Shown here piece after piece: positions 39,368 to 62,582 of a stretch of DNA of 64,000 bases. Numbering within the stretch: position 1 is the stretch's first letter; each line of letters opens with the position of its first letter. A model generated the notes under the pieces. The model saw nothing but the letters and a program-made list of their open reading frames with translations. It had not been told where the DNA came from and searched no databases. Made by a program: the position numbers and the translations under genes. The DNA comes from Bryobacteraceae bacterium (lineage in GTDB: Bacteria > Acidobacteriota > Terriglobia > Bryobacterales > Bryobacteraceae), in NCBI GenBank assembly GCA_026129905.1, contig JAHCHE010000039.1, positions 1 through 64,000 of the forward strand, given 5' to 3'.

Positions 39368-41038
39368 TTATTGCGCGATGGCGTCACGCATGAGGTACGT
39401 CTGTGTACCACCGTCGCGTCGCAGTTCTATAGGCACATCGTGAGCACGTAGATAAAGCCCTAGGAGGTGAAGGCTAAGTGATGCCGCCCCCATGCGTTGA
39501 TTTCTGCGAACAAGTTCGCCAAGGGCGTAGAGGCCCACCGCTTGGCCGGCCTTGTCGCGTTGCTTATCAGCAGCCATGATCAGGCCACGCAGAAAATCGT
39601 GCGTGCAGAGGCCGAAAAAATCATCTTCGATGCTCACGCGTATTGCGCCGTCCCGTTCAACGAAAACGACCTTTCCGCCGGTCCTCTGACGTTTAAGCAC
39701 GGCATTTGACACTTCCTGCACGTCGAAGGCGGCACGATTATATAAGCACTCTCGAAAGAACGGCGTAGCCTGACCGTAAGCGAGCATGTGAACAAGCTGC
39801 TTGGTGGCGTCGGGAAGTAGACATGCGGCATATGCGGCGCGCGTACTCCAACTGCTTACTTCCTCCGAGCCAAATCCTCCACTGTCGACCCAGAACTTAG
39901 CAGCAAGATAATCGTGAATAGTGCGGTGAGTGAACTGCCATTCATCTCCAGTCGGGACCAGCACGCCGTACCACTGCGCAATTTCCGTCAGGAGCAATCG
40001 CACGTCGATGCCCTTGATCTGGACCAGTTCGAGATGGCGCCGAATGCTGCTCTCGACGACATCCCAGGACGCCTGCAGCCGTTCCATTGAGAACGCAACT
40101 CGCATGAGGCATCTTACACGCTCGTAACCATCGATCTCCAGGTCGGATTGCCGACGTACTCCCTTTGACTGATCCCAACGAAGAGTTAGCGTCTGAATTG
40201 CGCGTTCAATTAGGCCGATCGAACGCCTGGGTATCTCCCTTTCAGTGCCCGTTTGAAGAATGCAGACGAGAGCTAGCATCAGAGGGTGCGAAGCAAAGTC
40301 CTCGAAGCCATGATCGTGCAGCTCGCTCAGAAGATGCTCAGCCGAAATAGAGATGCCGAGAGCACCAGCATAGGCTATGACGAACCTTATGGCGTCTTCA
40401 TGCGCGAAGGCACTAAGTTCGGCGTGCCTAACCTTTAGATCATAGACGTCGTAGTAAGAACGGCAGGTAAGGAAAAAACTTCCGACGCCGAGCGAGTTGA
40501 ATTCCAGGAGAGCCCGTGAAATGCGTTGCCGCTCTTTCTCGTTAATTTCGTCATAACCGTCGACCAGCAAAATGAGACTCTTGGCTCGGCCGGCGCTTCG
40601 TCCGAGCGCAAGGTTCCGCACGAAATCGCAGAGTACTTCGACGCCGTCCGGCCAGCGCAGCGTGAACAGCACTGGCAGGTACGTGGCTGTTTCGAGCAAG
40701 TAGTTATAAGCCCAATGCAGCAGTGTGGTCTTCCCGCGGCCGGGGCCCGCGAATATGATTGTGCTCTTGTCGTACAGTAGCTGAGTCAACTCGTACTTGA
40801 CCTTTTTCTCACCCATTGTTACAACAAGGTTGAGAGGTTGGTAAATCGCGCGAATCGGGATCGGATTAGGCATACCCACGCACTGAACGTGAGATGCCTC
40901 GGCTGCGGATAGGCGCAATATCCGATCGAGGGTTCTTCTCCAACTGCGAGAGTCCGCATCCTTGCTGAAGATTGCAAGGACGCCTTCTACGACGTAAGGG
41001 ATAGCGTTCCCAAGGTCAAGGGAAACCGGATCAGGCAT
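39368..41038 (-). CDS. NACHT-domain STAND NTPase, candidate anti-phage protein
   Basis: A 556-residue protein. The NACHT module has Walker A GPGRGKTT at residues 98-105, Walker B in KSLILLVDGYDEINEKER (near residue 155), and downstream SFFLTCRSYYDVYD and DFASHPLMLALVCIL. The end of the winged-helix part shows WQFTHRTIHDYLAAKFW, typical of bacterial NACHT proteins. The C-terminal about 150 residues are not recognised and may be the sensor; there is no obvious N-terminal effector domain. Bacterial NACHT proteins protect against phages. It is convergent with the TIM-barrel gene and lies at the edge of the defence island, apparently monocistronic. Confidence 0.8.
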   Translation of the reverse strand: MPDPVSLDLGNAIPYVVEGVLAIFSKDADSRSWRRTLDRILRLSAAEASHVQCVGMPNPIPIRAIYQPLNLVVTMGEKKVKYELTQLLYDKSTIIFAGPGRGKTTLLHWAYNYLLETATYLPVLFTLRWPDGVEVLCDFVRNLALGRSAGRAKSLILLVDGYDEINEKERQRISRALLEFNSLGVGSFFLTCRSYYDVYDLKVRHAELSAFAHEDAIRFVIAYAGALGISISAEHLLSELHDHGFEDFASHPLMLALVCILQTGTEREIPRRSIGLIERAIQTLTLRWDQSKGVRRQSDLEIDGYERVRCLMRVAFSMERLQASWDVVESSIRRHLELVQIKGIDVRLLLTEIAQWYGVLVPTGDEWQFTHRTIHDYLAAKFWVDSGGFGSEEVSSWSTRAAYAACLLPDATKQLVHMLAYGQATPFFRECLYNRAAFDVQEVSNAVLKRQRTGGKVVFVERDGAIRVSIEDDFFGLCTHDFLRGLIMAADKQRDKAGQAVGLYALGELVRRNQRMGAASLSLHLLGLYLRAHDVPIELRRDGGTQTYLMRDAIAQ

Positions 41039-41966: not shown

Positions 41967-44816
41967 GTGACGAGGGTGCCCGACAATGCTTTGCTGCCAC
42001 GAGCAGGGCTCAAAGCTGCGCTGAGGGCGATCGATTCCTCCTGGTCCCAACAGCGCCTTGCACAATTGCTCAGGATTGCCTACGATGCAATACGGAGAGC
42101 ATTGTCCGCAGGATTGCCGTCACCACATGATCGGATAATCACGGACCTGGTTGACCGGCTCCAAGCGATCGAGGCTCCGCGCTCGCTTGTCGAACTCCGA
42201 GTAACCGGGGCCGAGTACGAAGCCCTGCTGCGTTGGGGAGGGTCCCTATCAAGACATCGCGTCCGCGCAGACCTTCTATGGGGCCTGAATCGCTACTGCC
42301 TGGGAGCCGAATCCTGGGCGGCCAACGAGTTCGTCGGCTTAGGCCTGTTCATCCTAATAACCGAGATTGCCCGTCGTTACGCTAACGAGGGGCAGCTCTG
42401 GCCGAGCGTAGTAGAGTACTTTCCGCAATGCCGGGACGAACTCTTCACCAGAAATGCACAACCGGCGCCGCTTTTGAAGGATGGCCTTGAAACAGCCGCC
42501 CGCAAGGCACGACTCCGGCACGTCTTTGGGAGTACCGGGACTCAGGAATGGTATCTCAGCGTGTACCTGCAGTTCGGTTTCACAGCTTCTGGCATCAAGA
42601 GAATCCCGTATTGGCTCGCCGGCTATCCACGAACTGCGTCGATAAGCATTCTGCTGGGTGAAGATCAGCATTTTCCAGGCAGGGCCGCCGGGACTTTCCA
42701 GGAGCTTTGGGCGCTCTTGCAACAAGTGCGGGACGGCAACCGGAAGCCCGAACACGCAAAGCATCTTCTGATGCTGTGCCCCTTCATTCTGCCCGAATGG
42801 ATTGAGTCCGTATTAGCCCAGGCTCAGAAGCACGTCGAAACGATCGGGCACGAAAGCCAGACTGGCCCGATCCTTCTCTTTGAGGCACCGTTTCTCAAGT
42901 GGGCCCCAGGCTGTGCGCCACTTCTGGCGACGCGGGTCACCAGCCTCGCGTGGGCCAACCTTGACCCAGTCCCTCATCGCATCACAGTCGATGGCCAACC
43001 GTCGGGATACATCGCGTATAGCACCGACGGGCATCACACCACAAGCGGCGAAGTCGCACTGCCTCACCGTACCGGTTCATGCATCATCGAGTTGGAAACA
43101 GACGGACGGAGCGTGTACCAGCAGGAACTTGAGCTCTGGAGCGTTGACGAAGATGTTACCGCGTTTCGCTCGTTTACCGGCAAGAGAATAGACGCCTATC
43201 GGGATCTCATGAGAACCGGAGAGCCGTTCTACGTCGCCACAGCACCAGACATCAACCTTTTGCCAGAGCCCGCAAAGTTTCATCGAGACAACACGTTACC
43301 CGTCCACTTCTACGAACTTCGGCCTCCTTGGCCGCCGCAGATTCGCGCCGCCTTGGAAGGCCACGATGTCTGGAGCCCGCGAACAGGTCGCGAGCCCGCT
43401 CCCGAGCCGGCTTGGCTAAAAGAAATTCGGATCGTGCCAACCACCCCCGGCAACGCAAGAGTCGATGCCCCGCCCCCAACCGTGATCCGTCAAGTGAGGG
43501 TCGGTAGAGCCACGTTTCCGCCCGATGGGATCCAGTACGGAACTCTCCCGCCAAAACCACACTATACGATCACGATTAATGCAGAGTGTCGCAACCAGAG
43601 GGGGATCACCCGTCGGGCTCTCCAAGTCGAACCGCCAGCGCTTGAGCGCGTCGACAATGAATGGCGGAAGCTAACGACACTGTCTCGAATAACTGCTGCT
43701 GAAGCCGAGCAGCTCGTCATCAAACTGTCCCCGGCCTCGGACGACGAGCTATACCTGATGGCTGGCCACGTTCTTATCAAGCGCCTGACAGGTGCTGCAA
43801 CTCGTGTCGGACGAGTAACCGGATTCGGAGAATCGCTGGCTGTGTTTTCCGGGCGATTCAACGGCGCTCATCTCCAGTATCAGATCGCGAAGACACTTGA
43901 AGATACAGGAATCATTGTCAGCGCTCAGCACAATTTCGGCGTTCTGATCATCACGACCCAACATCAGGTGAACTTGACGCCCGAGCACTCCGTCCACATT
44001 CTCGGAGTCGACGGGAGCTTCACGAGTATTTCGGGAGGCGACATCAACGTCACGGACCGCCAATGGTGGCTCAGGGGTCTTTCTCAAGCGCAAATGGACG
44101 GGTGGATTGCCATTAAATTTAGGGGGGAGCGGCTCGGTGCGATCTGGCCACCGGTTGGGCCACTGCGGACCAAACCGCTGACCGCCCCATTGTCCGCTGA
44201 AATGAAGGCTGCCTTTCTCCGATGGTTCCGCGTTCCGATCTGCGCTTCCGATGTTCTTCCGTACGTCCGCCAGCTCCTTCATTCGAGACCGCAGGAGTGC
44301 TTAGGTATCTGGCTTAACAGAGAGAGATTTGAACTTCCCGACGGTCACGCGCTTCAGTTTGGCAACGATGCAGGCGAAGAATGGTGGGCGGCTGTACGTG
44401 AGGCATGTTGGGCATGGAGGCACAGGGCACGAGGCGTCAGCGACGACGTACTCAGCGCAGTCAGTGGTCGGGGTAACTCATTCACTGCGGGTTGCGCGTT
44501 GATCAAGAGGGCAGATCCCCTCTTGGCATACCGCATCCTCCGCCCTATTCTGTTAGAAGATCCCAGGTGGCTTAGCGACTTGGAAGTAACTCTACCAGGC
44601 GAGGCATACCTAAGAATGCTTCGAGAAGAATCCCAAACGGTCTTGCGAGCTGATGCCTACTTCCTCGATGACCTTGTGAGAAAGGCTTATGTCCATTGCA
44701 CCGGAGGCATGCTCCGCAAAATCGACGAAGACAATCTGAAGATTGCGCTCCACGGAGATGCCTTTCGGCAGTACGTCTTCATGAGGATGTGCAAGGATCA
44801 CTATGCCTCTCCTTAA
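41967..44816 (+). CDS. Large defence protein of unknown fold, candidate DruH (Druantia type III)
   Basis: A 949-residue soluble protein without a recognised domain. It begins [20 protein letters not shown] and contains a repetitive mid-region ([20 protein letters not shown]) that looks beta-rich, and helical ends. Its GTG start is uncertain. The gene overlaps the helicase gene by 14 bases, so the two are translated together. In Druantia type III a roughly thousand-residue protein of unknown fold, DruH, stands directly before the giant helicase DruE. Size, order and coupling fit, but I cannot confirm sequence family. The two genes form an isolated operon between a DUF429 relic and a comM fragment. 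Confidence 0.6.
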
Positions 44817-47800
44817 TGCAGTCGCGCTCACCGAGCAGATACGTCGGCGTCTCGTCGAACTCTGCTTGGACGACAACTACGTGTACGACGAACGATTGCG
44901 AAACCTGTGCGCGCGGCTCTGGGAGGGGCCGCCTGAACAAGGTGGGCTGGTCGGACACCTCTGGGTCGAGGGGGCCTTCGCCGCGGAACTCACGGAAGTC
45001 ACGCTGCCAGACCTTGTGCGAGCAGGGTTTCGCGGAGATCTCCAACGGCTCATTGACGCGAACGGGGTGTTTCCAGCGGGGCGACGGCTTTACAAGCATC
45101 AATTGGAAGCCATCACTAAAGCGCAACGAGCAGAGACCGACGCCTCGCCAGCGCTGGTGATTTCGGCACCCACTGGCTCGGGAAAGACCGAATCATTTCT
45201 TCTGCCAATACTCAACAGGCTCTTCACAAACGAACGCCGCGGCGAGGGCGTTCAATGCCTGATTCTCTACCCCATGAACGCCTTGGTCAATGATCAAGTC
45301 GACCGCCTTGAACGCTGGCTCAAGAACCAAGAACCGACACGGCTGCGAATTGTCCACTTCACGAGCGAGACGCCAGAGGAACACAGTTCAGACCTTCCAT
45401 CGTTTGATCTGTGTCGCTTGCGGACGCGTCAGGAGGCACGGGGCCTCGAGTCGAGAACCGGTCGACGCTGGCGGCCTGGCGAACCGAGGGGACCTATTCC
45501 TGACATTTTGATCACCAACTACTCCATGTTGGAGTACATGCTTTGTAGGCCGCAGGACGCCGTCTTCTTCGGACCGGCGCTACGCGCCGTAGTTCTCGAC
45601 GAGGCCCACCTTTATTCCGGCACCCTGGCGGCCGAAATAACGATGTTGCTGCGTCGCGTTTACGACCGCTGCGGTGTTCGCGCCGACGCGGTCCTTCACG
45701 TCGCCACATCGGCAACGTTGAGTGTCATGGACGACACTATCAAGACCTTCGCGGCTCGGCTTTTCTCCAAGTCCGCTGAACTCGTCGAGGTCATCGAGGG
45801 AAAACCCGATCGAGTGCGACTTGACGAACCGTCCCCGCCATCAGCTCCGACGCAGCCTCACGACCTGACTGCGCATCAATGGATAGTAGAACCCATGATC
45901 GCGGAGGGTGAGCTGGTCGTTAATCCGGACCGGTCACGAGAGCTTGCGAAACAACTGAGAAGTGTCGTCGGCACGCGGTCGATACAGGCCGCATGTCAGC
46001 TTGCGGAGGATCGCCCAGCCATTCTACTGCACTCGGCGTTGCGTGCCAGTCCCATCGTGCATAGACTGGTTCGAGCACTGTGGAATTCGCCACGCATCAG
46101 GCTCGAAGACCTTTCACAGGAGCTGTGGGGCGAATCAGGAGACGATGCCGTAAGTGCGACTCTTCATCTACTCCATCTGAGCGCTGTGGCTCGGCTTCGT
46201 CCTGACGAGCTGCCGCTTGTACCCCACCGGCTGCACTTGTTGGCCAGAGTCAATGCTCCGTTGCAGGTGTGTCTTAACGCTCAATGTTCAGCAACCTCAG
46301 ACAACAAGCTCACGGGTCTCGGTGCAGTGTCATCAGGGTTGCGGGAGCACTGCGAGCACTGCGGCGCCGCGACGCTCAGCCTGTATCGCTGTCCGACCTG
46401 TGGTCAGCATGTGCTCGCCGCTGATCGCGACACCCTTCAGTTGCGCCCGTTGTCAAACCCTCAGCGAACTCCCACGCTGTTGGTGATAACTCCAGCGGAG
46501 GGTGAAGTCTTGCACGCCGATACCAGGACAGGCGCTTACCCTCGGCGGGCAGGGGCAGAGTCGATCACCTTATTTGTCATCCAGCACTGCCCAAGATGTG
46601 GAGCCGATGGCAAGGACTTTACTTCTTTCGCGGTTGCCACTTCACTGACAATCACGATCCTCGCCGAAACGTTGCTCGCTGGACTACCGCCGCTTCCTGA
46701 AAATGAGGGCAGGATACGGCTAGCCCGAGGCCGTCGCGTACTCGCGTTTAGTGACAGCAGGATGGAGGCGGCTCGGCTCGGACCACGTCTCTCCTACCAG
46801 CATGAGATTCAGCTCGTCCGTGCTGCCATCGTTGACACGCTACGCCGACAGCCCGTCGCTGATCAGACAACAATTTCCTACCTGCAAGAGGAGATTCAGA
46901 ATCTTGAAAAGAAACTCTCGCTACCGCTTCCGGATCCCGTACGTATTCTTGTGTCGAGCGACTTGCAGAGGAAAAGGTCCGAGTTGGCGGCCCACCGTTC
47001 CGGCGGATCGATCCTGGAGATAGCTGGTGCCTTCTCAACCTCGCCGCTTCTCTTCGAGATTATGGATCAAGATTTTGGGGAGAACACGCGAGCCGACGAA
47101 TGGGACGAAAGGCAATGGAGCGCGAATAGAGATCGTGTCGCGAGGCGAGCCGTGCAGCTACTTGGCCGCGAATGCGCGCGAATGGAACGTAGCAACGAAC
47201 GGAGCCTCGAATCCATTGGGCTAATCGAGATTACCTATCCGGGTATCGAAGACCTTACCATGCCCTCCTTCGAGGAAGGCCTCCTCGGAGCCTCGGCTGC
47301 ACCATTGCGCGCACAGTGGCCAGATTTCGTCTCGTTACTTCTGGATACCTTGCGCGGAGATGGAGCGATCACGCTGGGCACCCCGGAGGATGACGGAGGG
47401 TATGAATATGGCCCGGAGTTGATCGGGAAATGGGCCTGTGTCGAAGGAGATGGGCTTCGACTTGTGCGATTCGTCGGAGAAACTGAAAACCATCGCCGCA
47501 ATCGGTTTGTATCCAGGGTACTTCGGAGAGTCAGTGCTCGCTCGGACCTAACGACCGCAAGAACGATCCTCCACCACACGTTCGATCAACTCGTGCACGC
47601 GGCGAAGTCTCTCCGGTTTCCGTGGCTTGAATATCAGCAAAGGGCAGACAAGGGAGGCCGGCTTTGCCAGTCCGTCCGGATGCGCTTTGGCGGACTAGGC
47701 CTGCGCATCCCGTCCGACCTCTACGAGTGCCCAATGACTGGTGGTGTATGGCCACGCGCCGTCGCGTTCTCCGTGCCCACGGCGCAAGGCAATCTCGTGG

Positions 47801-50043
47801 CCGATCTCAAAAGAATTCCTGCGCAGTTCCTCGACGAGAACTCCCGGTACGGCAGGCCTCGGCGCGAGTACAGCGATGAATCCGGAACTGTATTCCGAAT
47901 CGGGCTGTGGGCAGAGGAGCACAGCGCTCAACTCGCTTCCCATGAAAACCGCCGGCGCCAGGACCTTTTTCGGGCCGGCATCCGCAACGTCCTCTCGGCG
48001 ACTACGACCATGGAACTCGGGATCGACATTGGCTCCCTGTTGGCGGTACTCATGGGCAACATCCCACCGGGGAAGGCCAACTATCTCCAGCGTGCAGGCC
48101 GTGCGGGGCGCCGAACCGACGGATCGTCATTGGTTGTTTCGTTTGCTAGGCAGCGTCCGTATGACCGTGCTGTCTTCCAAGCGTTTGGCGAATACCTGAG
48201 TAAGCCGCTGCGCAAGCCGAGCATCCTCCTAAGTCGCCGGCGGGTCATTCGCCGCCACATCCACGCATACCTCCTTAACGAGTTCTTCCGCCACGTGTAT
48301 GCTCCTGAGGCACGGGTTGGGGCTATGGAGGCGTACGGCAGATTTGGGATATTCTGCGCGCTGCCGTTTCCCAAGTACTGGGACGCAGGCCCGAAGCCGT
48401 CCCTAGACCGCGCCAGCAACCGCTTTCCAGAGAATGTACACTCGCTCGCTTGGTGGAGCCCGGCTCCTGACGATCAGGTTCTGCGGAAGCAGTTCTCAAA
48501 CTACGTAACGTTTCTCCGGCAGCACGACAACGAAGAGCGGCGGCGTGCTCTGGCGCTTTTGCGCGGAGTTCCGGGATGGGAACAGGTCGAATGGGATCAA
48601 CTGTTAACGAGCACCAACCTACTTCTTCAGAACGCTTGTGATTATTGGCTTGAGATTTACAGCGACTTCCTCGCCGAATGGGAAGAAACACAGCAGAAAT
48701 CGGTAGCCAACGCTGTGCGGTATCAGATGAGCAACATCTTTGAGACTACGACAATCGAGTGTCTTGCCGACCGCTTGTTTCTGCCTAGGTATGGTTTTCC
48801 GATCGGCGTTCACCGATTGCAGGTGTATCAGCCCGCAAGCACGCGGGACGCCAGCGCTCGTGAAGACCGCTTCCGGCTTGAGCGCTCCGGACTACTTGCG
48901 CTAAGAGAGTACGTACCTGGCTCGCAGCTACTCGTTGGTGGAAAACTGGTTACCTCAAGGGGCATACTCAAGCACTGGACTGGCGCGAACCTCAATAAGG
49001 CTGTTGGGATGAAAGGGCAACTTGCGACGTGTGCCTCTGGTCACACCTATTACCGCTTCGGTCAAGCCACTCAGCAATGCCCGATCTGCGCGCAACCGAA
49101 TGCTGAGCCATCCATGGACATACTTCTGCCCAAATTCGGCTACAGTTCCGCAGCCTGGGACCCTCCACGGCGCAGCCGCAACATTGAGACCGTGGGGATA
49201 GTCGAACAAGCTACGATGACCTTCTTTCAACCGACCGAAGGACGCGTGACCGAGAGTGACTTTGGCGGCATCAGGGGCCTCCGCGCCGAGTACCAAGAGC
49301 AAGGTGAGCTTTTGGTTTTCAATCGCGGCCAGCAGGGCTTGGGGTACGCCATCTGCCTACAGTGTGGCTATGCAACGAGCGAGGAGTCCCACAGTGATGA
49401 CCGGCTACCTAAAGGCTTCGATCGACACAGCCCCTTGTTTTCGAAGAGCAGGGACGCTCGCTGCTGGCGCAGAGGCCAGGGATCGCATTGGCGGCATCAG
49501 ATCCTGGGCGCGAAAGAGGTAACCGACATCCTTTTTTTGGATTTTTCCGTCCCGTTCGGCACACACAGCTACGATCTCGCAGTTGCCACGACAGTTGGCC
49601 ACGCGCTACGGCAGGCCGGCGCTGAGATGATGCAGATCGACACGCGCGAGCTGGGAACGCTCGCGATTCCCGCAGGGAAGGCAGGGCGAAGCTGGGGTGT
49701 GGTCCTGTACGATAACGTCCCAGGTGGTGCGGGCCATGTTTACGAGCTCATGGAGCTCGCACCGAGATGGCTGAAGGCAGCGGCCAAAACGATGTATGTG
49801 GATGAACGTCACCATCGCGAGTGCGTGCACGCGTGCTTGGATTGCCTCCTGACCTTTGAGGCGCAATACGAAATTGAGCGCGGTCGAATGAACCGGCAGC
49901 TTGCCTACGAAGCGCTCGCCACAGCTCTACGGGGCGAACCGCCACCTGAGTCGGGTGAAAGTGCGATACCGGGCATCCAGGATCGGGGTAGCGTAGACGA
50001 GCGAATCTCACGCGCTAGGCGCGCCGCGAAGCGAAAGATTTGA
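44803..50043 (+). CDS. Giant DEAH helicase with DUF1998 C-terminus, candidate DruE
   Basis: A 1746-residue protein. Superfamily 2 motifs: Walker [16 protein letters not shown] near residue 121, Q-like region upstream, DEAH in [11 protein letters not shown] near residue 265, motif [12 protein letters not shown], and motif [16 protein letters not shown] near residue 1095. Zinc-like Cys clusters occur at about 490-550 ([16 protein letters not shown]), about 600 (CPRCGADG), 1425 (CPICAQPN) and 1510. The end contains the DUF1998 block [17 protein letters not shown] and the cysteine motif [17 protein letters not shown] near residue 1672. DruE proteins of Druantia have this layout and size. Stand-alone DISARM helicases are shorter and split, so Druantia III is the best match. 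Confidence 0.72.
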
Positions 50044-50084
50044 AAGACGGCGCGCAGCTTTGGCACTGGAGCCGTGTTCAGTTA

Positions 50085-50560
50085 AGGTCTGCACGGACAG
50101 GGATTCATCGCGGCGATCAGCATGAAGCTGGCCGGAAACGTCAGCGTCATGTTCGAGCGGGCAATCGTCACCGAGCCGTCTTCCAGCGGCTGCCGCAGCA
50201 GCTCGAGCACGTTGCGCGGAAACTCCGGCAACTCATCCAGAAACAGTACGCCGTGGTGGGCCAGGCTCACCTCGCCCGGCCGCGGCATGCCCGGACCGCC
50301 GCCGATGAGGCCGGCGTCGGAGACCGTTTGATGCGGCGCGCGAAAGGGCCGTTCTTTCAGCATGCCCACGCCCCGCGGCAGTTGCCCGGCCACGCCCAGG
50401 ATCTTGGTGGTTTCGAGCGCCTCCTCGAACGTCAGCGGCGGCAGGATGCCGGGCAGACGCTTCGCCAGCATGGTTTTGCCGCTCCCGGGCGGTCCGATCA
50501 TGAGCACGTTGTACGCGCCAGCGGCGGCCACCTCGAGGGCTCTCTTGTCTGCCGTCAAGC
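50085..50560 (-). pseudogene. comM: Internal fragment of comM (Mg-chelatase-like competence ATPase)
   Basis: On the minus strand about 155 residues of ComM are intact: [20 protein letters not shown] with the Walker A GPPGSGKT, then [60 protein letters not shown] and [16 protein letters not shown]. The family is about 500 residues, so both ends are missing; the frame ends in a stop two codons after CPC. It starts 42 bases after the DruE-like stop. Flanking sequence on both sides is unrelated. Confidence 0.85.
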
Positions 50561-52300
50561 GGTTCGAGTGTCGGGCGTCGGGAGGGTGATGGGCCCGCGG
50601 AGAGATGGTCATGTAATGGGGCAGGCCGCGGGTTTGGATGGCGTCGGGATAAACCGGCGTGAAGTTGTGAATGAAAGAGTCATACAGGAAAGGAGTAGCG
50701 AACCATCCTGGCCCCGAGCCATGCGGGGGCAGCCGCAAGGCGGCCCTCGAAGCGTTGGACAGGGGCACATGCAGGCTAGGTATCCCTAACCAGTGAGCTC
50801 CGAAATCGTTCCATCCGGGAGCCGACCGTGTCAAACCAACGGGAAGGCAATATCGCGGCGCGCGACAGCGCGAGCGCGCCGCGGCCCGGCGGAGTCGAAG
50901 ACCCCAAGCATGCATGGAAACTTCACGCGCGAGAACCGAGAGGCCCCGCGGCTGTCCGTGACCGGTAGGACGCGGACCGCTGGGTGAAGAGCGGCAGACA
51001 CACGTCTCGGCAAGGCGGAGAGGGTCCGGTCATCGTCATCCGGGTTCCGTCGAGGTGGTAGTGTGGATGCTCATCGTGCAGCGCCTGCGTCTGCGCTGCG
51101 CCTCTGCGAGAGCACTGGCATGGTCATGGGATGGGAGTGCCCATACTGCTTCGACGAGGCGTGCCGGTTGTATCGCGAGTCGGACAAGGAATAGCCGGAT
51201 CATCGCCGCCATATCGTGTCCTCGATGCGGAGCCGGAGCGGGAGAACCCTGCCGCAATCCGGTTCCGCATCAGGAAGTTCGAGGTCCGGTGGACAGTCGT
51301 TCTCAGCCTTATGGCGTCCACAAAGAGCGCCGTATGGCGTGGGTGGACGCCAAAAGGGACGTATAGACGCACGAGTCGCCAGGCTCGGGTTCCTGTCCTC
51401 GCTGTGGACGCTGGTCTCGTTTTGAGGGGCCTGAGCGCCAGCGCGCCGAAGTCAGCCTGTCCTGGCTTTTCTTCATCCCGCCTCCGTCTCGAGCGCCGCT
51501 TTCTGACTGGTGTTCGTGAAGGCGAAAATCCGCTCGGTTCAAGAAAGAGAGAAGGAAAGCGATGATCCTGTGAAGGCTTGATGGTCGCTTCTTCGTAGCA
51601 TGATGAACGTTTGGATCGCCGCGGACCTATCCGGCTGTCAAGGCTCTTCTTTTACGCCAGTAAACGAGGAACTCGGGAAGAGAGCCGGCGAGCTTTCGGT
51701 TAGCCGGGATCGGCTGCGCCTAAGAGGGCGTGTGAAAAGACAGGCTACTTTATGCCGGAGATTTTCTGCTCCGACATGGTAGCCCTTATCACAACCGGGG
51801 TGATAGACGATCTTGGCTTCAGGGGCCGGCCGGTCCGATCGCCGCTTGCGGCGGCTACGAGTCTTTCTGGACCGGCCAACGAACCCCGTATCGGGTCATG
51901 GCCGCAACTGCTCGGCTCGCGATGCGGGCGCCATCAACTAGGCGATCATCAACCTTCTGGTTCTTTCCCAACCTGGATTCAGGTGGCGGAGTGGACCGTT
52001 GATCGGGCTCGCCACTCCGCGTTTCCCCAAGTTACCTTGGAGACCTGGGCCCGTAACCGCCCTGGGAACGGATGACCGGCATAGCTCCGTAGCACCAGCC
52101 CGGCGCGTCCCGCCAGATTCCCAAGAATGCCACGCCTTGGTTCACCGCCGTCTTACTTCCGAGGTCAGACGCGACCGCCAGATCCTTTTATGGACGGGCG
52201 GGCCTTGCGGCCCACAAATAGAGCTAGTATAGGATGATCAGGAAATATCTCAGGTTTTTTCGCCGAGCCTCGGCAATAGGGCTTTGCGCGTAGGGTCTAC
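50561..52300. other. Long stretch without an intact gene
   Basis: Only short, compositionally arbitrary frames occur here, apart from a degenerate zinc-finger ORF (51199-51366). A GC-rich inverted repeat GGGCGGGCCTTGCGGCCCAC occurs at about 52197-52216. The region looks like accumulated debris between the two defence systems. Confidence 0.4.
51199..51366 (+). pseudogene. Degenerate small zinc-finger ORF
   Basis: The frame encodes ISCPRCGAGAGEPCRNPVPH, a CxxC...C...H arrangement common to tiny actinophage- and plasmid-type zinc fingers, followed by GVHKERRMAWVDAKRDV and a stop. No usable start codon precedes the motif. An adjacent 24-codon frame (51120-51194) has a matching CPYC start, so a single-base shift may have split the gene. 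Confidence 0.35.
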
Positions 52301-54964: not shown

Positions 54965-56095
54965 ATGCAGGTCTCCTACGAGGAATTGCTCGAGGCGTGT
55001 CTCGATTACCAGCCCGGCCGCGCCACGGGCCGGAGCATCAGGACAACGATTCGCTTCAACACGGACGGCGTCGTCCGCCCGCCCATATATGTCGAAAAAG
55101 ACAAGACCCGGATCTATGCAGTCGAACGCCGCGGAGACGGCGCGGTATCGGCGCAACTCGACTCGCCGGCCTCCCAGGCGAACCGGTTCGAGGCGATTCT
55201 GCGCGCCTTTCGCGAAATCCTCGGGCTGCCGGTGATCTGGCTCGAGATCGACGGCAAGGTAATCGACAACTTCACCGCGCCGCATCGGGTATTCGATTCG
55301 ATCTTTCGGCGGGCGGTGTTGGACGGCGTCGATTTCCCAAAATCGAAGATCGGCCAAATGCTATGGGCGCCAAGGCCCAAGGACATGTCCGCGCTGTTCC
55401 GCTATTGCCCGAACGTACTGCTGTTCGGCGGGTGGGACAGTCTGGCCAAGTGGTCGGGCGCGCGGATTGCCAAGGTCGTTGAGTCGTACGTTACGGCGCA
55501 CCACATCGAGCGCTGCTGCGGAACCGCCTCCCGGCTGGACCCGCTCGGTCTCGGCCGGGATCTCCGCGTCTACCGGCATCGGGAACCCGCGCTCGGCTGG
55601 ACGCTGCAGCCGACCGAAGCGCGGGGGGAATCGCCGGTGGAACCAGCCAAAGTGGTGCTCGGGAATATTCCTCCAAGCCTGAACGAGCTTGGGGGCGTAC
55701 GCGCCCAAGAGATCATCCAGACGACGATTATCTCGCTGACCGCCCTCCGCCAATACTCGTTCGGCAGTCCGGAGCGAAACGGGGCCGCACGGGCGGTTCT
55801 GACGGCGCTGGCTCTGTTCGCCGCGGCGGTTCAGTTTGAAAGCGGCGGCTGGCTGCGGTCCGGTTGCCAGCTCGATCCGCTCGACAGCGAGTTGCTATTC
55901 CAGTTGACGACGTCTACGGGAACTCGGGCCTTACCGCTGTCGGCCGAGCAAGCTCTAACGCTGACGCAGACCGCGACGGCCGCCACGCGGCGTCTCGGGC
56001 TGGAGTGGGAGTCGCTGCAGCTGGAGCCATCGGAAGATCTGATCGAGCTCGTCAGGCGAAATGGCCAGAACGGAGATCCTGAGGATGAGAATTAG
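54965..56095 (+). CDS. csb1: Cas7 subunit of type I-G CRISPR (Csb1/GSU0053)
   Basis: A 376-residue protein of the Csb1 family. It starts MQVSYEELLEACLDYQPGRA. The signature block LFGGWDSLAKWSGARIAKVV is near residue 155, NIPPSLNELGGVRAQEIIQT is near residue 230, and VLTALALFAAAVQFESGGWL is near residue 278. Csb1 is the backbone subunit that coats the crRNA in the type I-G Cascade complex. It has an AGGAG site before its ATG and overlaps csb2 by 11 bases. Confidence 0.9.
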   Translation: MQVSYEELLEACLDYQPGRATGRSIRTTIRFNTDGVVRPPIYVEKDKTRIYAVERRGDGAVSAQLDSPASQANRFEAILRAFREILGLPVIWLEIDGKVIDNFTAPHRVFDSIFRRAVLDGVDFPKSKIGQMLWAPRPKDMSALFRYCPNVLLFGGWDSLAKWSGARIAKVVESYVTAHHIERCCGTASRLDPLGLGRDLRVYRHREPALGWTLQPTEARGESPVEPAKVVLGNIPPSLNELGGVRAQEIIQTTIISLTALRQYSFGSPERNGAARAVLTALALFAAAVQFESGGWLRSGCQLDPLDSELLFQLTTSTGTRALPLSAEQALTLTQTATAATRRLGLEWESLQLEPSEDLIELVRRNGQNGDPEDEN

Positions 56096-57431
56096 TGTCG
56101 ACGTTCTGGGCCGGGCGCACGCGTTCACGCCGGAGGGAGAACGCGAGTGGCCGTTTTATCCATCCCGTTTGTTTTGCTCGGCCGTCGCCGCCGTCAAACA
56201 AGCGAGATTGGGAACCCAGGCCGAGGACGCCTTGCGGTGGCTGGAACGGCTGCCGTCACCGCAGATCGGCTGTCCGGCAGCAGCGGCGCCCGGCATCGTT
56301 GAGACATGGGTTCCGTCGAACTATTCCCGGTTCCGCCGGCCCCACGAGATCCTGCCCTGGCTGCGCAACCGGCAACTGCGTGAAGTGGGCGCTTTCAGCG
56401 TTTTCGGGCCCATAGACTACCAGTGGCCGGAGGTCAACGCGTGGCCCGAAGCGCTCGGCGCCGTCATCGAACACATCTCCCGGATCGGACGGTCGGATTC
56501 GCTCGTTTCGGCGTCGATTTTTCCAGAACCTGTCGAACCCAACTTGGTCCCTGGGCGAGGAAGAACGTCATTGGGCGTGCCTCGACCAGGCTACTTGCAG
56601 ATGCTCGAAGAGGCGTACCGCCGCGGTTTGCGCCCGGCTCCGCCCGCGATCGAATGGTACGGACCGCCGGGATCGGCGGAGACGGTTGGCATGCCGGCGC
56701 ACGGAGAAATGATCGTTCTCGGTCAGGCCGGCGGAGATATCGTCGGCATCGAGGATTCCCTGCTGCTGACGGACTCGCTCCGAAAGGGGATCCTGCGGGT
56801 TGCAACCGAGCGCGGACTGCTCATCCCAGAACTGCACGGCCACGAGCCGTCTTCCAAGACTGGAAAACACCATTGCGCGTTTCTGGCGTTGCCGAACGTA
56901 GGTCACGCACATGCCGACGGATTCGTCAAGGGCGTCGCGGTGGTTCTGCCGACGGGCATCGATGCGGATGCGAGATGGCGGATCTACTGTACGCTAGCGC
57001 AGCTGACGGCAATCCATTGCGGGCGAAAGCAGATGACCCTCGCGCCGGCGACCGCCATTGGGCCGGCGACGCTACGGGCGGAGACGTGGATAGGTCCTTC
57101 GCGGACCTGGACGAGCGTTACGCCTATCCTGTTCCGGCGGCGGCCTTCGCTGAAGTTTGACCGAGCGCGGGAGGATTTGATTGCGGCCTATTGCCTGGCT
57201 GCCGGGCTGCCGGAGCCGCTGGACATCGCCTGCCAGGCTCACCCGGCGTGCGCCGGGACCGTCGATGCCCGCGAGTATCGTCTCGCCCGCAAGCCCGACG
57301 AGAGGCAAGGTTTCGGATTTCACGCCACGATCCGGTTCGCCCGCCGCGTGCGGGGACCGATCTTCGTCGGCCGGTGGCGGCACTTCGGCCTGGGGCTGCT
57401 GCGGCCGGTTTCCTCACCGATATGCAGGTAG
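56085..57431 (+). CDS. csb2: Cas5-Cas6 fusion subunit of type I-G CRISPR (Csb2/GSU0054)
   Basis: A 448-residue protein starting MRISVDVLGRAHAFTPEGER. The N-terminal block WPFYPSRLFCSAVAAVKQ and the later KHHCAFLALPNVGHAHADGF and VKGVAVVLPTGIDADARWRI are the RAMP motifs of Csb2. It processes pre-crRNA and binds the 5' handle. The internal ATG at 56085 is used because it begins at the conserved strand and overlaps csb1 by 11 bases. Its 3' end overlaps the cas3 start by 10 bases. Confidence 0.85.
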   Translation: MRISVDVLGRAHAFTPEGEREWPFYPSRLFCSAVAAVKQARLGTQAEDALRWLERLPSPQIGCPAAAAPGIVETWVPSNYSRFRRPHEILPWLRNRQLREVGAFSVFGPIDYQWPEVNAWPEALGAVIEHISRIGRSDSLVSASIFPEPVEPNLVPGRGRTSLGVPRPGYLQMLEEAYRRGLRPAPPAIEWYGPPGSAETVGMPAHGEMIVLGQAGGDIVGIEDSLLLTDSLRKGILRVATERGLLIPELHGHEPSSKTGKHHCAFLALPNVGHAHADGFVKGVAVVLPTGIDADARWRIYCTLAQLTAIHCGRKQMTLAPATAIGPATLRAETWIGPSRTWTSVTPILFRRRPSLKFDRAREDLIAAYCLAAGLPEPLDIACQAHPACAGTVDAREYRLARKPDERQGFGFHATIRFARRVRGPIFVGRWRHFGLGLLRPVSSPICR

Positions 57432-59983
57432 CCGATTTCCGTTCGTTCTTCCGGCAACTGCATGGGTTGGAGCCGTTTCGCTGGCAAATCCGGTTACTGC
57501 GTCACATTCTGGGCGAGGGCTGGCCAGATTTCATCGACCTGCCGACGAGCTTCGGCAAAACCTGCGTCATCGAGATCGCCGTGTTCCTGCTGGCGCTCGG
57601 CGCGAAACCGGCGGCGCGAAGGATTTTCCTGGCCGTGGACCGGCGTCTGGTGGTGGACCAGATCGGAGCGCATGCCCGGAAAATCGCCAGGAAACTGCGA
57701 AAAGCGCGAACCGGCGCAGTGCGACTCGCCGCCGACCGGCTTCGGGCGCTGGGCGGAGACTTCCCGCTGACGGCGGTGACGCTGCGCGGCGGCTTGGAGT
57801 ATGAGCGGCCGTGGTGCCGGAATCCGGCGCAGCCGATCGTCGCGGTCTGCACGGTCGACCAGTTGGGCTCGCGCCTGCTGTTCCGCGCCTACAGCTGTAC
57901 AAAGAGCAGGCGTCCCATCGAGGCGGGCTTGGCGGGAAACGACGCTCTCCTGATTGCCGATGAAGCGCACCTGTCGCAGCCATTTATCGACACGGCGAAG
58001 CGTCTGCGCGATCTTGGCGCCGACATCCGCCTCACGCAGATGTCCGCTACTCCTCGAGTCTCCGACGGGTCGGTCTTCTCGTGGCAGCCTTCGGAGGACA
58101 TGTTGGATCCGATCCTCCGGCAGCGGGTGGTCGCCTCGAAGCCGGCCCGCCTCGTGGAGACGCAGAACCTCGTTCGATCCGCCGTCGCGGAAGCTCGCGC
58201 GATGCCCGGGCCGGCGGTCGGCGTCATTCTGAATACCATTGGGGCGGTTCGTCAGGTGTTCGAGCAGCTTGATGGAGAGAAGGCGTTGTTGATCGGGCCC
58301 GTCCGTCCAGCGGAGCGGAAAGCGGTATTGGAAAAATGGCTGCCCCTGATTGCGGCGGGGCGCCGACGGAGCGACCGTCGCATCTACTGCGTATCGACCC
58401 AGGGGATTGAAGCGGGTCCGGACATCGATTTCGACAGCCTGGTAACGGAAGCCGCGCCGCTGGACGTGCTACGGCAACGCTTCGGACGCCTCGACAGGCG
58501 AGGCGAACGGGGAAGCACGCAGGCCGCGATCCTGCGCGACCCCGGACGCAATTTTGTCCCGTATGGGCGGGCGGTCGAGAGGACATGGCGATGGCTGCGC
58601 GCGCGCCGCCCGATGAGCGAAACAGAGTCAGTCGATTTCGGCGTTCTCGCGATGCATGAGATGCTCGCACGGTTTCGTGACGCCGATCTGCTGACGCCCT
58701 CGCCGCGAGCGCCGGCTCTGTTGCCTGCCTACCTCGACGCATGGCAGGATACGCGGAGCGATAGCGTTCCGGACGCAGCCCCGTTCCTGCACGGGACTGA
58801 AGCGCTCGATGCCGACGAAATACAACTGGTCTGGCGGGCGGATCTCGGCGCGGACTGGGCGGCGGCGGTTCGCGCCGCGCCGCCGGATTCGCGGGAAGCC
58901 ATGCCGCTCCCGCTTCGCGCGTTGAAGCGCTGGCTGCGGCGCCGGGCCGAGGCCTTCCTGCCGGCGCAAGGGCTGCGCTGGCGCGGGCTGACGCAAGCGC
59001 CGTCAGTCGTGGACGGTGGTAAGGGCATTCGGCCCGGCGACACAGTCGTAGTCCCATCGAACTACGGCGGCTCAGATGCGTTTGGCTGGAATCCGGACTC
59101 GCTTGGACCCGTGCCGGACATCGGCAATTCGGCCGGGGGCTGGCGGCGCATTCACCCGAGCCTGTTCGCGCCGGCCGCAAAAGAGACCATCGCGCGCCGG
59201 ATCAGATTGCTTGGGGCAGCCGATGAAGCGATCGATGCAGAAGCGCTTCAGGAACTCGTCGAGTTAACAGGCCTTGATGGCGTGGACTTGGCGAGCGCAG
59301 AGGCGTATCCGGGAGGCATCGCCCTCCGGATCCGCCCGCCGCGCAGGCGCGGGAACAGCGCCAAAGAGGTTACGCTGGCCGCGCACAGCTATGGCGTGGA
59401 ACAGTGGGTCCTGCAATTCGCGGCCGCATGCGGCGTCACCTCTGAAGAAGTCGAGGCTTTGGGCTGGGCCGGCCAGTACCATGACCTGGGAAAGTGGGAT
59501 CTTCGCGTACAGGCGATCTTCCACGGAGGGAATTTCGTCGGCGCCGCGCGGGCAATCGACGGAAAACAGCCGCTGGCCAAGTCCCTATTCGCGCAGAACT
59601 ATTCACAAAAACGGCTCGTCCGGCGCGCCGCCGGCTATCCGCGCCGGGCGCGCCACGAGGCGGCGTCGGTGAAGCTCGCCGAGGAACTCGGCGCGTGTGA
59701 GTTGACCCTCCACCTGATCGCGTCCCACCACGGCCATGGACGGCCGTGGCTGCCGGCCTGGGACGATGACCACGGGATCACGGCTCATGTCGACGGGCGG
59801 GAAGTCACCACCGGCGCCGGGGGTGAACTCGGCTGCCCCGACTCGCCCCAGCCAGAGCGGTTCCGGTCACTGGCGCTCCGCCATGGCGCCTGGAAGCTCG
59901 CGTATTTGGAAACCATTCTGCGCCTGGCGGATCAGCGTCAGAGCGCTGATGAGCGGCAGGCTCGGAGTACCCATGACCAGTAG
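57422..59983 (+). CDS. cas3: Cas3 helicase-nuclease of type I-G, C-terminal HD domain
   Basis: An 853-residue protein whose ATG at 57422 overlaps csb2 by 10 bases. Helicase motifs come first: Walker A PTSFGKT (residues 41-47), DEAH in ALLIADEAHLSQPF (near 180), motif III MSATPRVSD (near 208) and QRFGRLDRRGERGS (near 352). The HD nuclease is at the C-terminus: GQYHDLGKWDLRVQAIFHGG (near 686), RHEAASVKLAEEL and ASHHGHGRPWLPAWDDD. The order helicase then HD is the hallmark of type I-G Cas3. It degrades DNA recruited by the complex. Confidence 0.9.
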   Translation: MQVADFRSFFRQLHGLEPFRWQIRLLRHILGEGWPDFIDLPTSFGKTCVIEIAVFLLALGAKPAARRIFLAVDRRLVVDQIGAHARKIARKLRKARTGAVRLAADRLRALGGDFPLTAVTLRGGLEYERPWCRNPAQPIVAVCTVDQLGSRLLFRAYSCTKSRRPIEAGLAGNDALLIADEAHLSQPFIDTAKRLRDLGADIRLTQMSATPRVSDGSVFSWQPSEDMLDPILRQRVVASKPARLVETQNLVRSAVAEARAMPGPAVGVILNTIGAVRQVFEQLDGEKALLIGPVRPAERKAVLEKWLPLIAAGRRRSDRRIYCVSTQGIEAGPDIDFDSLVTEAAPLDVLRQRFGRLDRRGERGSTQAAILRDPGRNFVPYGRAVERTWRWLRARRPMSETESVDFGVLAMHEMLARFRDADLLTPSPRAPALLPAYLDAWQDTRSDSVPDAAPFLHGTEALDADEIQLVWRADLGADWAAAVRAAPPDSREAMPLPLRALKRWLRRRAEAFLPAQGLRWRGLTQAPSVVDGGKGIRPGDTVVVPSNYGGSDAFGWNPDSLGPVPDIGNSAGGWRRIHPSLFAPAAKETIARRIRLLGAADEAIDAEALQELVELTGLDGVDLASAEAYPGGIALRIRPPRRRGNSAKEVTLAAHSYGVEQWVLQFAAACGVTSEEVEALGWAGQYHDLGKWDLRVQAIFHGGNFVGAARAIDGKQPLAKSLFAQNYSQKRLVRRAAGYPRRARHEAASVKLAEELGACELTLHLIASHHGHGRPWLPAWDDDHGITAHVDGREVTTGAGGELGCPDSPQPERFRSLALRHGAWKLAYLETILRLADQRQSADERQARSTHDQ

Positions 59984-59987
59984 TTCT

Positions 59988-60091
59988 ATTTCCCGCCTCC
60001 GTACGGAGGATCGAAGTTCGTCGATGAAGGGTTTGGTTCGACGTTCGAGTTCGACTTCATTTCCCGCCTCCCGCAGGGGAGGATCGTTCAA
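59988..60091 (+). repeat. Two hairpin-forming repeats 71 bp apart, between cas3 and the Cas8-like gene
   Basis: Copy 1 begins at 59988 (ATTTCCCGCCTCCGTACGGA), copy 2 at 60059 (ATTTCCCGCCTCCCGCAGGG). Both end GGAGGATCG and form short palindromic stems of 5 or 6 bp. Copy 2 supplies the GGGGAGG ribosome site of the downstream gene. The 71-bp period suits a repeat-spacer unit, but two degenerate copies do not make an array. Confidence 0.55.
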
Positions 60092-61050
60092 TTGAGTCGA
60101 CAGCTGGGATTGCCGCAACTGCGAGCGGATTCGCCGATTCGGGCGATGGCGGCATTCGGCCTTCATCGCGTTATTGGCGGCCGTCTGTTTTGGCGGCTCG
60201 ATGGCGATGGCATTTGTCGCGCTGTGCTCGAGACGCCGCTGACCGAAGACGAGTTGGTTCAAGCCCTGGCGACAACCGCCAAAAGCGCCGCTGCCGATCG
60301 CGGCGGAGCGGCATGGCTAGGCATTGCGTTCGAACGCCACCGGCAGGAGTTGGCGGAAAGGTGGGCGGCGGCCGCGACCAGACGGCTCCAAGCGGAAGAG
60401 TCTCGCTGGCTAGCCGCGTTGGGAACGGTGATTGGTGATCGTTTTGTGAGAACCCAGTTTGATCTGACTCACGCTAGCGTAAGCTTCTTCAACAAGCTCG
60501 CCGAGAGCTGCCGCGGGGAGCCAGCGAACGCTCAATCCAGAAGGCTCTCTTTGAGCCGTGGGAATATCGTGACGCCGTTCATTCCCTCGGCTGGGACCCG
60601 GAGGCATATCGCGGAGGCGCGGTGACGGCCGAGCAGCCCAAGACGCAGCGGACGAAACACCCGCCTGCCGCCGCGACATGGCTGGCGTCCGAGGCGCTGC
60701 CCCTGTTTCCGTGTTGGGTGGCGCAGGGGAAGCGGGTGACGCGCGGGTGGGACGGCGACCGGTTCCGCTGGCCCATCTGGGAACGCCCGGCCTCGCCAGC
60801 GGCAGTCCAAGGGCTTCTCGCCGAGCCGTCCAGGCCGGGCGTGGTCGCGGTGTATGTCTCGCGGCGGCGTCGCTTCCTCGCCACAGGACAGGGCGTGTTC
60901 CGTCCCGCCGTTGCGTACGAATGGCACCGGGCCCGTTCGAAGTCGCCGTCAGATCAGATTAACCGCGCGCAAACCTGTTGGGACCCTCAACGATTGAAAA
61001 AACAGAGGCGTCCGCCAGGACATGTGCTCGCAAACGTCTCCAGGCTTTGA
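60092..61050 (+). pseudogene. Cas8-like subunit of type I-G ('Cas3-extension'/Csx17-like), frameshifted
   Basis: Frame 1, from TTG 60092, encodes LGLPQLRADSPIRAMAAFGL and continues to about residue 141. The homologous continuation KALFEPWEYRDAVHSLGWDP, then ATWLASEALPLFPCW and DRFRWPIWERPASPAAVQGL, lies in another frame from about 60,520 to the stop at 61050. The change of frame coincides with a GGGG run (60515-60518). The combined length (about 315 residues) suits this family, which replaces classical Cas8 in I-G operons. If real, interference is abolished; a sequencing error is equally possible. Confidence 0.75.
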
Positions 61051-61117
61051 CCGCGGTCGAGCGCCCAGCGATTAATCTCAGTATCCAACAGCCCAATGCG
61101 CGCCTTCGCGAAACTAG

Positions 61118-62582
61118 TACTACTGTGTTATAAACGGAACATTCTGTGATAGAATTGTTTTGTGGGTACACCGTCCGCGCCAGGCCCACAAGAGAGGCGC
61201 TTTGCGGCATACACGGATGGCCTGGCAAAAGCCGCAGGGCACGCCGATCGGCATGGCCCGTTGAAAGCCTACTGCGCCGGGCTGTTGCTGCCGGGCGAGC
61301 GCAAGAGCGTGGAGCCGATGGCGGCGCGCCTGGCGCCTGAAAACGTCCGGCGCACGCACCAGTCGCTACATCATTTGGTGGCGGATGCGCCCTGGAGTGA
61401 CGAAGCCGTTCTGGGAAGCGTGCGGGAGCATGTTCTGGCGGCGATGAAGCAGAACGGACCGGTGGTCGCCTGGATCGTGGATGACACCGGCTTTTTGAAG
61501 AAAGGAACGCATTCGGTCGGGGTGGCGCGTCAGTACTGCGGGCAAGTGGGCAAGCAGGACAACTGCCGGGTGGCGGTGAGTTTGTCGGTGGCGACCTGCC
61601 ACGCCAGCCTTCCCATCGCGTGGCGGTTATATCTGCCGGAGAGTTGGGCCAACGATCAGGACCGGCGAAAGGAAACCGGCATTCCGGATGAGGTCCATTT
61701 TCAAACCAAGCCGGCGATAGCGCTGGCGCAGATTCGCCGGGCGGCGGAGCAGGGGGTGTCACGAGGGCCGGTCCTGGCAGATTCCGCTTATGGCAATGAG
61801 ACCCGGTTTCGAGAAGGGATTACCGAACTGGAGTTGACGTATACGGTCGGCGTTCACGAGAACATGACCGTCTGGCCGCCGGGGGAAGCGCCGCGACCGA
61901 AACCACGGCGGAAGGGCCGGGGGCGCCCGCCCACCCGGTTGCAGCGGGATGCGGAGCATCAGCCGGTCGCGGCAAAAGAACTGGCGGTTTCGTTGCCAGA
62001 CCAGGTCTGGAAAACCGTCGCCTGGCGGGAAGGAACCAGGCACAAACTGAAATCGCGTTTTGCGGCCGTTCGGGTCCGCCCGGCGCACCGGGATCATAAC
62101 CGGAGTGAACCGTATCCGGAAGAATGGCTGTTGGTGGAATGGCCCGCGAGCGAAACGGAACCCACCAAGTACTGGCTGTCTACGCTGCCGCCGCGGACCC
62201 GACTGACCGCGCTGGTGCGGCTGGCCAAACACCGCTGGATCATCGAGCGCGATTACGAAGAGCTCAAACAGGAACTCGGACTGGGACATTATGAGGGCCG
62301 CGGCTGGCGAGGATTCCATCATCACGCCACGCTCTGCATTGCCGCCTACGGGTTCCTGGTGATCGAACGGACCCGTTTTTCCCCCTCTGCCCGCGCCGGC
62401 CGACTGGAGCTACGCGCGGCGAGGATTCCGCCCGAGTTCCAGCCCCGCGGTTCGCCGCGTGCGCGCCGAACGGCATAACCCGCAGTCCATTGCCACGCTC
62501 CGCATCAAGATCGCGCGCGCCCTGATTCGGCAGCTCCCCTGCTGCCCCTTCTGTTGCACGTTTCTTTATTAACACAGTAGTA
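61118..62582. mobile_element. IS701-family insertion sequence
   Basis: A 1465-bp element with terminal inverted repeats that begin TACTACTGTGTTA on both ends (61118-61130 and 62570-62582, perfect for 13 bases, then diverging). Flanks are CTAG on the left and TTAG on the right, which fit the YTAR target preference of this family but are not identical. It lies 67 bases downstream of the Cas8-like gene. Confidence 0.9.
61162..62572 (+). pseudogene. IS701-family transposase with a C-terminal frameshift
   Basis: From GTG 61162 the protein shows the full DDE transposase pattern: WIVDDTGFLKKGTHSVGVAR (first aspartates), RGPVLADSAYGNETRFREG (second aspartate) and HRWIIERDYEELKQELGLGH (glutamate). 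The frame ends early at 62478. The typical last block ERHNPQSIATLRIKIARALI and LPCCPFC continues in another frame from about 62,460 to a stop at 62572 inside the inverted repeat, so one extra base lies near 62,458. The catalytic core is complete; whether the short form works is unknown. Confidence 0.85.

Follow-up and report, generated by a model that had tools for sequence, protein, structure and literature searches.

A candidate two-gene antiphage system, probably a sister branch of Druantia type III with a predicted nuclease-less DruE-like helicase, in a Bryobacteraceae bacterium

We analyzed a window of 64,000 nucleotides of forward-strand DNA from a Bryobacteraceae bacterium (assembly GCA_026129905.1, contig JAHCHE010000039.1, positions 1 to 64,000), in which two consecutive genes encode a putative antiphage system: a partner protein of 949 amino acids (aa), here P0001, and a large helicase of 1746 aa (Table 1). 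A preliminary description, made from the letters alone, had read them as a translationally coupled pair resembling Druantia type III, and both frames were indeed present at these lengths. The partner has further possible in-frame starts at 41976, 41991 and 42066. The overlap of the two genes makes translational coupling plausible, as had been proposed, and the order of partner followed by helicase recurs across other genomes far beyond chance.

Table 1. The gene pair and the regions of the partner, in positions of the window.
Feature	Position	Strand	Details and basis
Partner gene, 949 aa	41967..44816	+	GTG start; open frame and translation
Helicase gene, 1746 aa	44803..50043	+	ATG start; open frame and translation
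Overlap of the two genes, 14 bp	44803..44816	+	Helicase ATG lies within the last codons of the partner
Partner N-terminal helical domain, residues 52-300	42120..42866	+	AlphaFold2 model, profile-profile and shuffle tests, conservation counts
Partner central beta-rich region, about residues 302-733, predicted tandem beta-sandwich (Ig/FnIII-like)	42870..44165	+	Foldseek, VIA-align 2

The helicase is a superfamily 2 (SF2) protein of the YprA family and is DruE-like. DEAD, Helicase_C and MZB/DUF1998 all exceeded the Pfam cut-offs (MZB/DUF1998 at residues 1599-1682, 42.4 bits against a cut-off of 24.2), and the motifs TGSGKT, DEAH and QRAGRAGRR were found at residues 124, 266 and 1096. "At least four" cysteine clusters had been noted earlier; we counted six CxxC pairs, at 517, 530, 596, 1426, 1518 and 1678. 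Among PADLOC models the best match was DruE3 (PDLC00037) with 697 bits, against 292 bits for DruE4, and the helicases of other systems scored far lower (DpdJ 94.6, BrxHI 84.3 and DrmA 65.2 bits), so that a Dpd, BREX or DISARM helicase was rejected as its identity. The solved YprA structure 6znp was also matched by the helicase profile.

The size of the pair, which had been said to match DruH-DruE together with the gene order, did not hold up as the order did, since the helicase is approximately 350 aa shorter than the E. coli-type DruE (2104 aa). This is because the part C-terminal of the Zn domain is missing: only 64 residues follow MZB in the window helicase (1682 of 1746), as compared to 413 in E. 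coli DruE (1691 of 2104). In the passages on Druantia III in PMC13192584 the C-terminus of E. coli DruE consists of one inactive and one active PLD domain, and judged from its length the window helicase leaves no room for these two PLD-like domains. Even for E. coli DruE the PLD domains go undetected by Pfam, hence the argument for tail loss rests on length; a regular expression for the HKD motif of PLD nucleases was uninformative, as it found no tail motif even in known DruE proteins. Similar lengths of 1599-1908 aa were obtained for the 22 helicase frames of the clade described below (taken from the first possible start; the 1599-aa frame ends at a contig edge). One of eight DruE proteins from DruH-bearing loci (Azotobacter, 1705 aa) is also short and without the tail, and the loss is therefore not unique to this clade.

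To place the helicase, we aligned five related helicases and used them to scan contigs; of at least 575 relatives the best 80 were retained as loci, to which all locus counts refer. The scores of the main frames against the window helicase were bimodal, with at least 706 bits for loci of one clade and at most 346 bits for all others. The exception was L063, where a 219-aa helicase fragment with 51% identity scored 176 bits and was assigned to the clade on that fragment. In a tree of 85 helicases both the window clade (23 rows) and the DruE proteins of eight DruH-bearing plasmid loci received a support of 100 in the Shimodaira-Hasegawa-like approximate likelihood ratio test (SH-aLRT), and the two groups were sisters, again with 100. 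This pairing stayed at 99 when nine actinobacterial rows were added (94-row tree), and a mixture-model tree of 37 of the 94 rows gave bootstrap/SH-aLRT values of 100/100 for the clade, 100/100 for the DruE of DruH-bearing loci and 100/99 for the pair. The trees are unrooted, many rows were flagged for unusual letter make-up, and in the 94-row tree joined long branches were flagged outside the window clade. The 85-row tree excludes L020 (the same locus as L027), L032, L039, L040, L046, L063 and non-clade frames below 1250 aa. With DruE3 as best match and a sister position to the DruE of DruH-bearing systems, the proposed resemblance to Druantia type III was borne out for the helicase.

The clade was found in at least 12 phyla, counted from tree labels, record titles and one plasmid. 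By tree labels these are Myxococcota, Planctomycetota, Acidobacteriota, Thermodesulfobacteriota, Chloroflexota, Vulcanimicrobiota, Verrucomicrobiota, Campylobacterota and Latescibacterota. From record titles come Bipolaricaulota, Hydrogenedentota and Desulforamulus, the last of which we take to belong to Bacillota. Pseudomonadota is added by a relative on a plasmid of Roseomonas mucosa, where it is flanked by transposase genes on both sides, and most of the clade loci examined lie outside that phylum. Within the phylum of the window's own genome the partner was carried by 4 of 396 genomes (E <= 1e-10), its own included, and in one of them (G267) as interrupted pieces. The own genome (8.57 Mb, 71 contigs) holds a second, diverged pair at C6:140386-148370 (L019 4378-12545, minus strand), whose partner is split into frames of 503 and 472 aa.

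The partner had been described as a protein of no recognised domain, and we likewise obtained no significant match in PADLOC, Pfam or NCBIfam: no PADLOC family at E <= 1, no NCBIfam family at E <= 0.1, and in Pfam a single line far under the cut-off (DUF3666, E 0.024, 14.3 of 25 bits). With a profile built from 21 partners, the gene immediately preceding the helicase was matched in 23 of the 24 loci of the clade and in none of the 56 other loci, some of which contain little upstream DNA (e.g. L056 and L069). The remaining clade locus, L039, is a contig lying entirely within the helicase, without upstream DNA. Many of the 23 matched partners are seeds of the profile, and the seeds were therefore checked by leave-one-out (row removed, no realignment), where 21 of 21 were recovered with E <= 5.2e-58. 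Between the partner stop codon and the point where helicase similarity begins, the distance ranged from -14 to +53 bp in the 23 loci, and the match was split over two frames in L032 and L063. By these profile matches, the partner family is confined to this helicase clade within the set of loci that we examined.

Several partners are extended at the N-terminus: by another N-terminal domain in G275, a repeat of the first, approximately 460 aa in Roseomonas, approximately 1180 aa without a Pfam match in L030 (2540-6079), and approximately 520 aa with a sigma-70 region 4-like helix-turn-helix in L044 (4489-6048). In G275 contig C14 we also observed a 439-aa protein with two tandem partner N-terminal domains, the second partial (L023 9316-10635, minus strand); no other frame in this 18-kb stretch exceeds 1136 aa, too short for an adjoining full-length helicase of this kind. 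A tblastn search of plasmids with the window partner gave no match at E <= 0.01, the Roseomonas plasmid partner being too distant for it. Three pattern matches in viral contigs scanned with the partner included no relative, and the family profile against PDB sequences gave two chance-level matches.

AlphaFold2 modeled the partner with a mean predicted local distance difference test (pLDDT) score of 83.9 and a predicted template modeling (pTM) score of 0.52, as helices up to about residue 290, mainly beta strands from 309 to 726, and helices with two short strands from 731 to 947. This predicted layout (helical, beta-sandwich, helical) closely resembles that described for DruH. Modeled alone, the N-terminal domain reached a pLDDT of 92.7 and a pTM of 0.90. 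In Foldseek and VIA-align 2 the beta region matched small beta-sandwich domains, mostly Ig/FnIII-like, of many unrelated proteins (best Foldseek E 8.2e-5, Z <= 6.9), and this spread points to a common arrangement rather than to a named relative.

As the partner had been called divergent and a possible new variant, its relation to DruH was the central question. PADLOC DruH3 models matched E. coli DruH (11 models, our control) and Sinorhizobium DruH (10), yet none of them matched P0001 or its relatives from G275, G026, C6 (two fragments) and Roseomonas, which is in line with the earlier view. Profile-profile alignments of the N-terminal domain gave a different result. With gappy columns removed, the N-terminal domain of the partner family aligned to eight DruH with a score of 28.3 (probability 11), a score reached by 0 of 200 column or block shuffles (best 21.9); a second partner alignment against 17 DruH scored 30.2 (probability 18; 0 of 180 shuffles, best 25.3). 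An actinobacterial-type set of N-terminal domains (L132-L134 with L104 and L085) was related to the window family with an hhalign probability of 87 (0 of 200 shuffles). Unchanged, this set scored 33.8 against the 17 DruH (probability 40; 0 of 180 shuffles), and when it was combined with the window family the match to DruH rose to a score of 37.5 and a probability of 60 over 113 columns (0 of 200 block shuffles, best 29.3).

This combined match spans both conserved motifs in order and pairs E133, R136, R137 and W145 of P0001 with E75, R78, R79 and W88 of DruH. All four DruH residues are invariant in the eight DruH, and the residues at 19 DruH positions that we checked agree with those named in PMC13192584. 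In the partner family E133 is kept in 13, R136 in 17, R137 in 14 and W145 in 18 of 19 rows, and L201-Q202-G204 is conserved as well; conservation was counted over rows with a residue at the position, i.e. 19 of the 24 rows of alignment A5 for the first motif and 20 for the second. According to the same source's passages on Druantia III, the substitutions E75A, R78A/R79A and W88A in DruH abolished defence.

The actinobacterial-like N-terminal domains of L104 (4706-8299) and L085 (5673-8732), which are partners of other two-gene DruE-like loci, were detected with E 3e-14 and 4e-4. The sequences that follow them towards the C-terminus differ, which makes the domain look like an exchangeable module.

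A number of results weigh against a relation to DruH. Blastp of the partner against DruH found no significant similarity, plain searches with hidden Markov models (HMMs) found nothing in either direction, and an HMM of eight DruH sequences gave P0001 an E of 30. Full-length hhalign of partner against DruH had a probability of 1.3, as compared to 100 for two halves of the DruH set against each other; a first local alignment of the N-terminal domain gave 6.8 and a forced global one 0.2, and the probabilities for the partner family alone are low (7-18 for the N-terminal domain). Against eight DruH the actinobacterial-type set scored 26.4 (probability 7), and 2 of 200 shuffles were as high. The central part is weakly similar (probability 11, 0 of 30 shuffles); the C-terminal part showed no similarity, as one of 30 shuffles beat the real score. 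When the fold of the N-terminal domain was compared with BFVD and with the April 2026 PDB library, nothing matched at E <= 0.001 (best VIA Z 4.0), and DruH 9tud, found in the PDB sequence copy and of uncertain presence in that library, was absent from the results.

On this basis a YprA helicase of the Druantia branch might have acquired a new beta-sandwich partner unrelated to DruH, the N-terminal similarity being convergence or chance, as the low single-family probabilities, the unmatched C-terminal parts and the lack of a fold match would allow. We regard this as rather unlikely: none of the 180 and 200 shuffles reached the real N-terminal scores, the score of the actinobacterial-type set rose from 26.4 to 33.8 as the DruH rows went from 8 to 17, and the combined match takes in both motifs in order. 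As a remote relationship of the N-terminal domain is detectable, the partner is probably not unrelated to DruH; its sequence points to what is probably a deeply diverged DruH-like protein.

The opposite possibility, that the locus is a canonical Druantia III whose ordinary DruH is missed by the profiles, appears unlikely. The gene order is the same, DruE3 is the best helicase match, the helicase is a sister to DruE, the partner layout is similar and the Azotobacter DruE likewise lacks the tail. On the other side, models that recognise the E. coli and Sinorhizobium DruH 11 and 10 times find neither P0001 nor those of its relatives that were tested, the helicase clade is separate from the DruE of DruH-bearing loci (100/100), the window helicase is without the 400-aa tail and the C-terminal part of the partner is without DruH similarity. 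Since we found neither a recognisable DruH nor a PLD tail, the pair was not placed within Druantia III itself.

Taken together, our results suggest that the pair is a two-component antiphage system forming a sister branch of Druantia type III, with a nuclease-less DruE-like helicase and a deeply diverged DruH-like partner, a reading to which we give a probability of roughly 60%. The pair probably serves in antivirus defence, and in keeping with this are the scattered occurrence, the relative on a plasmid, the nearby Type I-G cas and weakly NACHT-like genes and the NERD-nuclease genes next to related pairs. Against it stands that we know of no phage assay for this branch. A DNA-repair pair of the MrfA/YprA housekeeping type would share the helicase family and the match to 6znp; we find this very unlikely, as only 4 of 396 genomes of the phylum carry the partner, the best helicase matches are DruE models, one relative sits on a plasmid among transposases, and the partner has no significant match, MrfB included. 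That the locus is decayed or inactive, as the two-frame partner of the second genomic copy, the interrupted pieces in G267 and an adjoining truncated YifB-like gene might hint, is hardly credible with both window frames intact and TGSGKT, DEAH and QRAGRAGRR present.

In the window itself, a 556-aa protein with weak similarity to NACHT and to the antiphage protein EruA, under the curated cut-offs, is encoded divergently from the pair (39368-41038, minus strand). Downstream, a 277-aa frame (50082-50915, minus strand) covers no more than about 150 residues of a YifB-like Mg chelatase, whose profile spans about 500 aa, and is probably a remnant. Type I-G cas7, csb2 and cas3 were identified with NCBIfam at 55-60 kb; the region 54965-62478 comprises the Type I-G genes, a short frame weakly similar to a Cas3-extension protein and then an IS701 transposase. 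A direct-repeat search at 50-64 kb found no CRISPR array.

Other clade pairs have their own downstream genes. NERD-nuclease genes lie directly downstream in L034 (13985-17980), L037 (9983-11812), L045 (14700-16379) and L047 (14671-16371). NERD domains were present in four of the eight downstream frames scanned, fused to UvrD-like helicase or kinase domains: a NERD-helicase follows three verrucomicrobial pairs and a NERD-kinase one eremiobacterial pair. Three deltaproteobacterial/myxococcal pairs are followed by an unnamed third gene of 486-571 aa with 32-37% identity (L029 10152-11612, L031 7803-9299 and L041 13959-15674). Among the eight frames, those of L031, L033 and L030 had no Pfam match.

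As a two-component sister branch of Druantia III, the pair may work like that system, which we propose with moderate confidence. The partner would act as DruH does: the beta-sandwich array, or the lineage-specific N-terminal extensions, would sense a phage product, and the N-terminal E/RR/W surface would pass activation on. The helicase could then load onto replication intermediates of the phage at their 3' single-stranded ends and strip or stall replication. We infer the steps of sensing, activation and 3'-tail action by transfer from E. coli Druantia III. With a helicase that lacks the nuclease tail, any cutting would fall to the partner, to nucleases of the host or, in certain lineages, to the product of an extra gene downstream, e.g. 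a NERD nuclease. More tentatively, and possible rather than probable in our judgement, E. coli DruH-DruE, the actinobacterial pairs and the window clade may all rely on a single coupling domain of ancient origin at the N-terminus of the partner, which bears an E..RR..W surface, while sensing parts and nuclease output were freely exchanged; the clade would then act by helicase and optional add-on nucleases, as a system type that current tools leave unannotated.

The molecular explanation of Druantia III is only now emerging, and a sister branch that keeps the helicase and, apparently, the regulatory N-terminal domain of the partner without the nuclease tail tells the essential parts from the exchangeable ones. 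Druantia III-like defence would extend to many phyla via partners missed by the PADLOC 2023 models (five partners, six frames tested), and the conserved residues make the proposed activation surface of DruH testable in a distant relative.

Compared with known systems, the DISARM, Dpd and BREX helicases are SF2 helicases like that of the window, and DrmA and DpdJ are likewise members of the YprA family according to PMC12458937 (main text); they are set apart by PADLOC scores of 65, 95 and 84 bits for DrmA, DpdJ and BrxHI against 697 for DruE3. ARMADA companions were rejected, with no such match in 17 neighboring frames at 33-63 kb (eight searched in PADLOC, Pfam and NCBIfam, nine in NCBIfam alone). 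For Druantia type IV, PADLOC gave no DruF or DruL match in eight neighbors, in a search without a positive control.

Closer to the window pair is the Druantia 'Type III-like' or III-B group of PMC12458937 (representative GIH50614.1), in its main text a distinct branch of Type III-like helicases that are mostly without a nuclease domain; that text does not use the name DruH. This comparison is by description, the III-B representatives being outside our trees, and the clade may or may not fall in III-B. In the main-text passages on Druantia III, supplements aside, we found no description of the partner family or of the link between its N-terminal domain and DruH. Among actinobacteria, the passages on MSMEG_1253/1254 in PMC13316683 describe a Druantia III of two overlapping genes, a 1132-aa partner and a 1667-aa helicase, that blocks phages. 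The pairs L132-L134 are of like size and, judging from sizes and gene order only, would be of this MSMEG type; they belong to the set whose partner N-terminal domain is related to that of the window (probability 87). Their similarity to the window partners is mainly in this domain, and their helicases group with other two-gene loci on a different branch (100/100).

From E. coli Druantia III (DruH-DruE, as presented in the passages of PMC13192584) the window pair differs in a partner that DruH profiles do not see, with clear similarity confined to the N-terminal domain, and in a helicase of a separate clade. The likeness lies in two genes with the partner first, a DruE-family helicase with MZB/DUF1998, and a partner of helical, beta-sandwich and helical layout whose N-terminal domain has the E..RR..W pattern, these last two being predicted on the window side.

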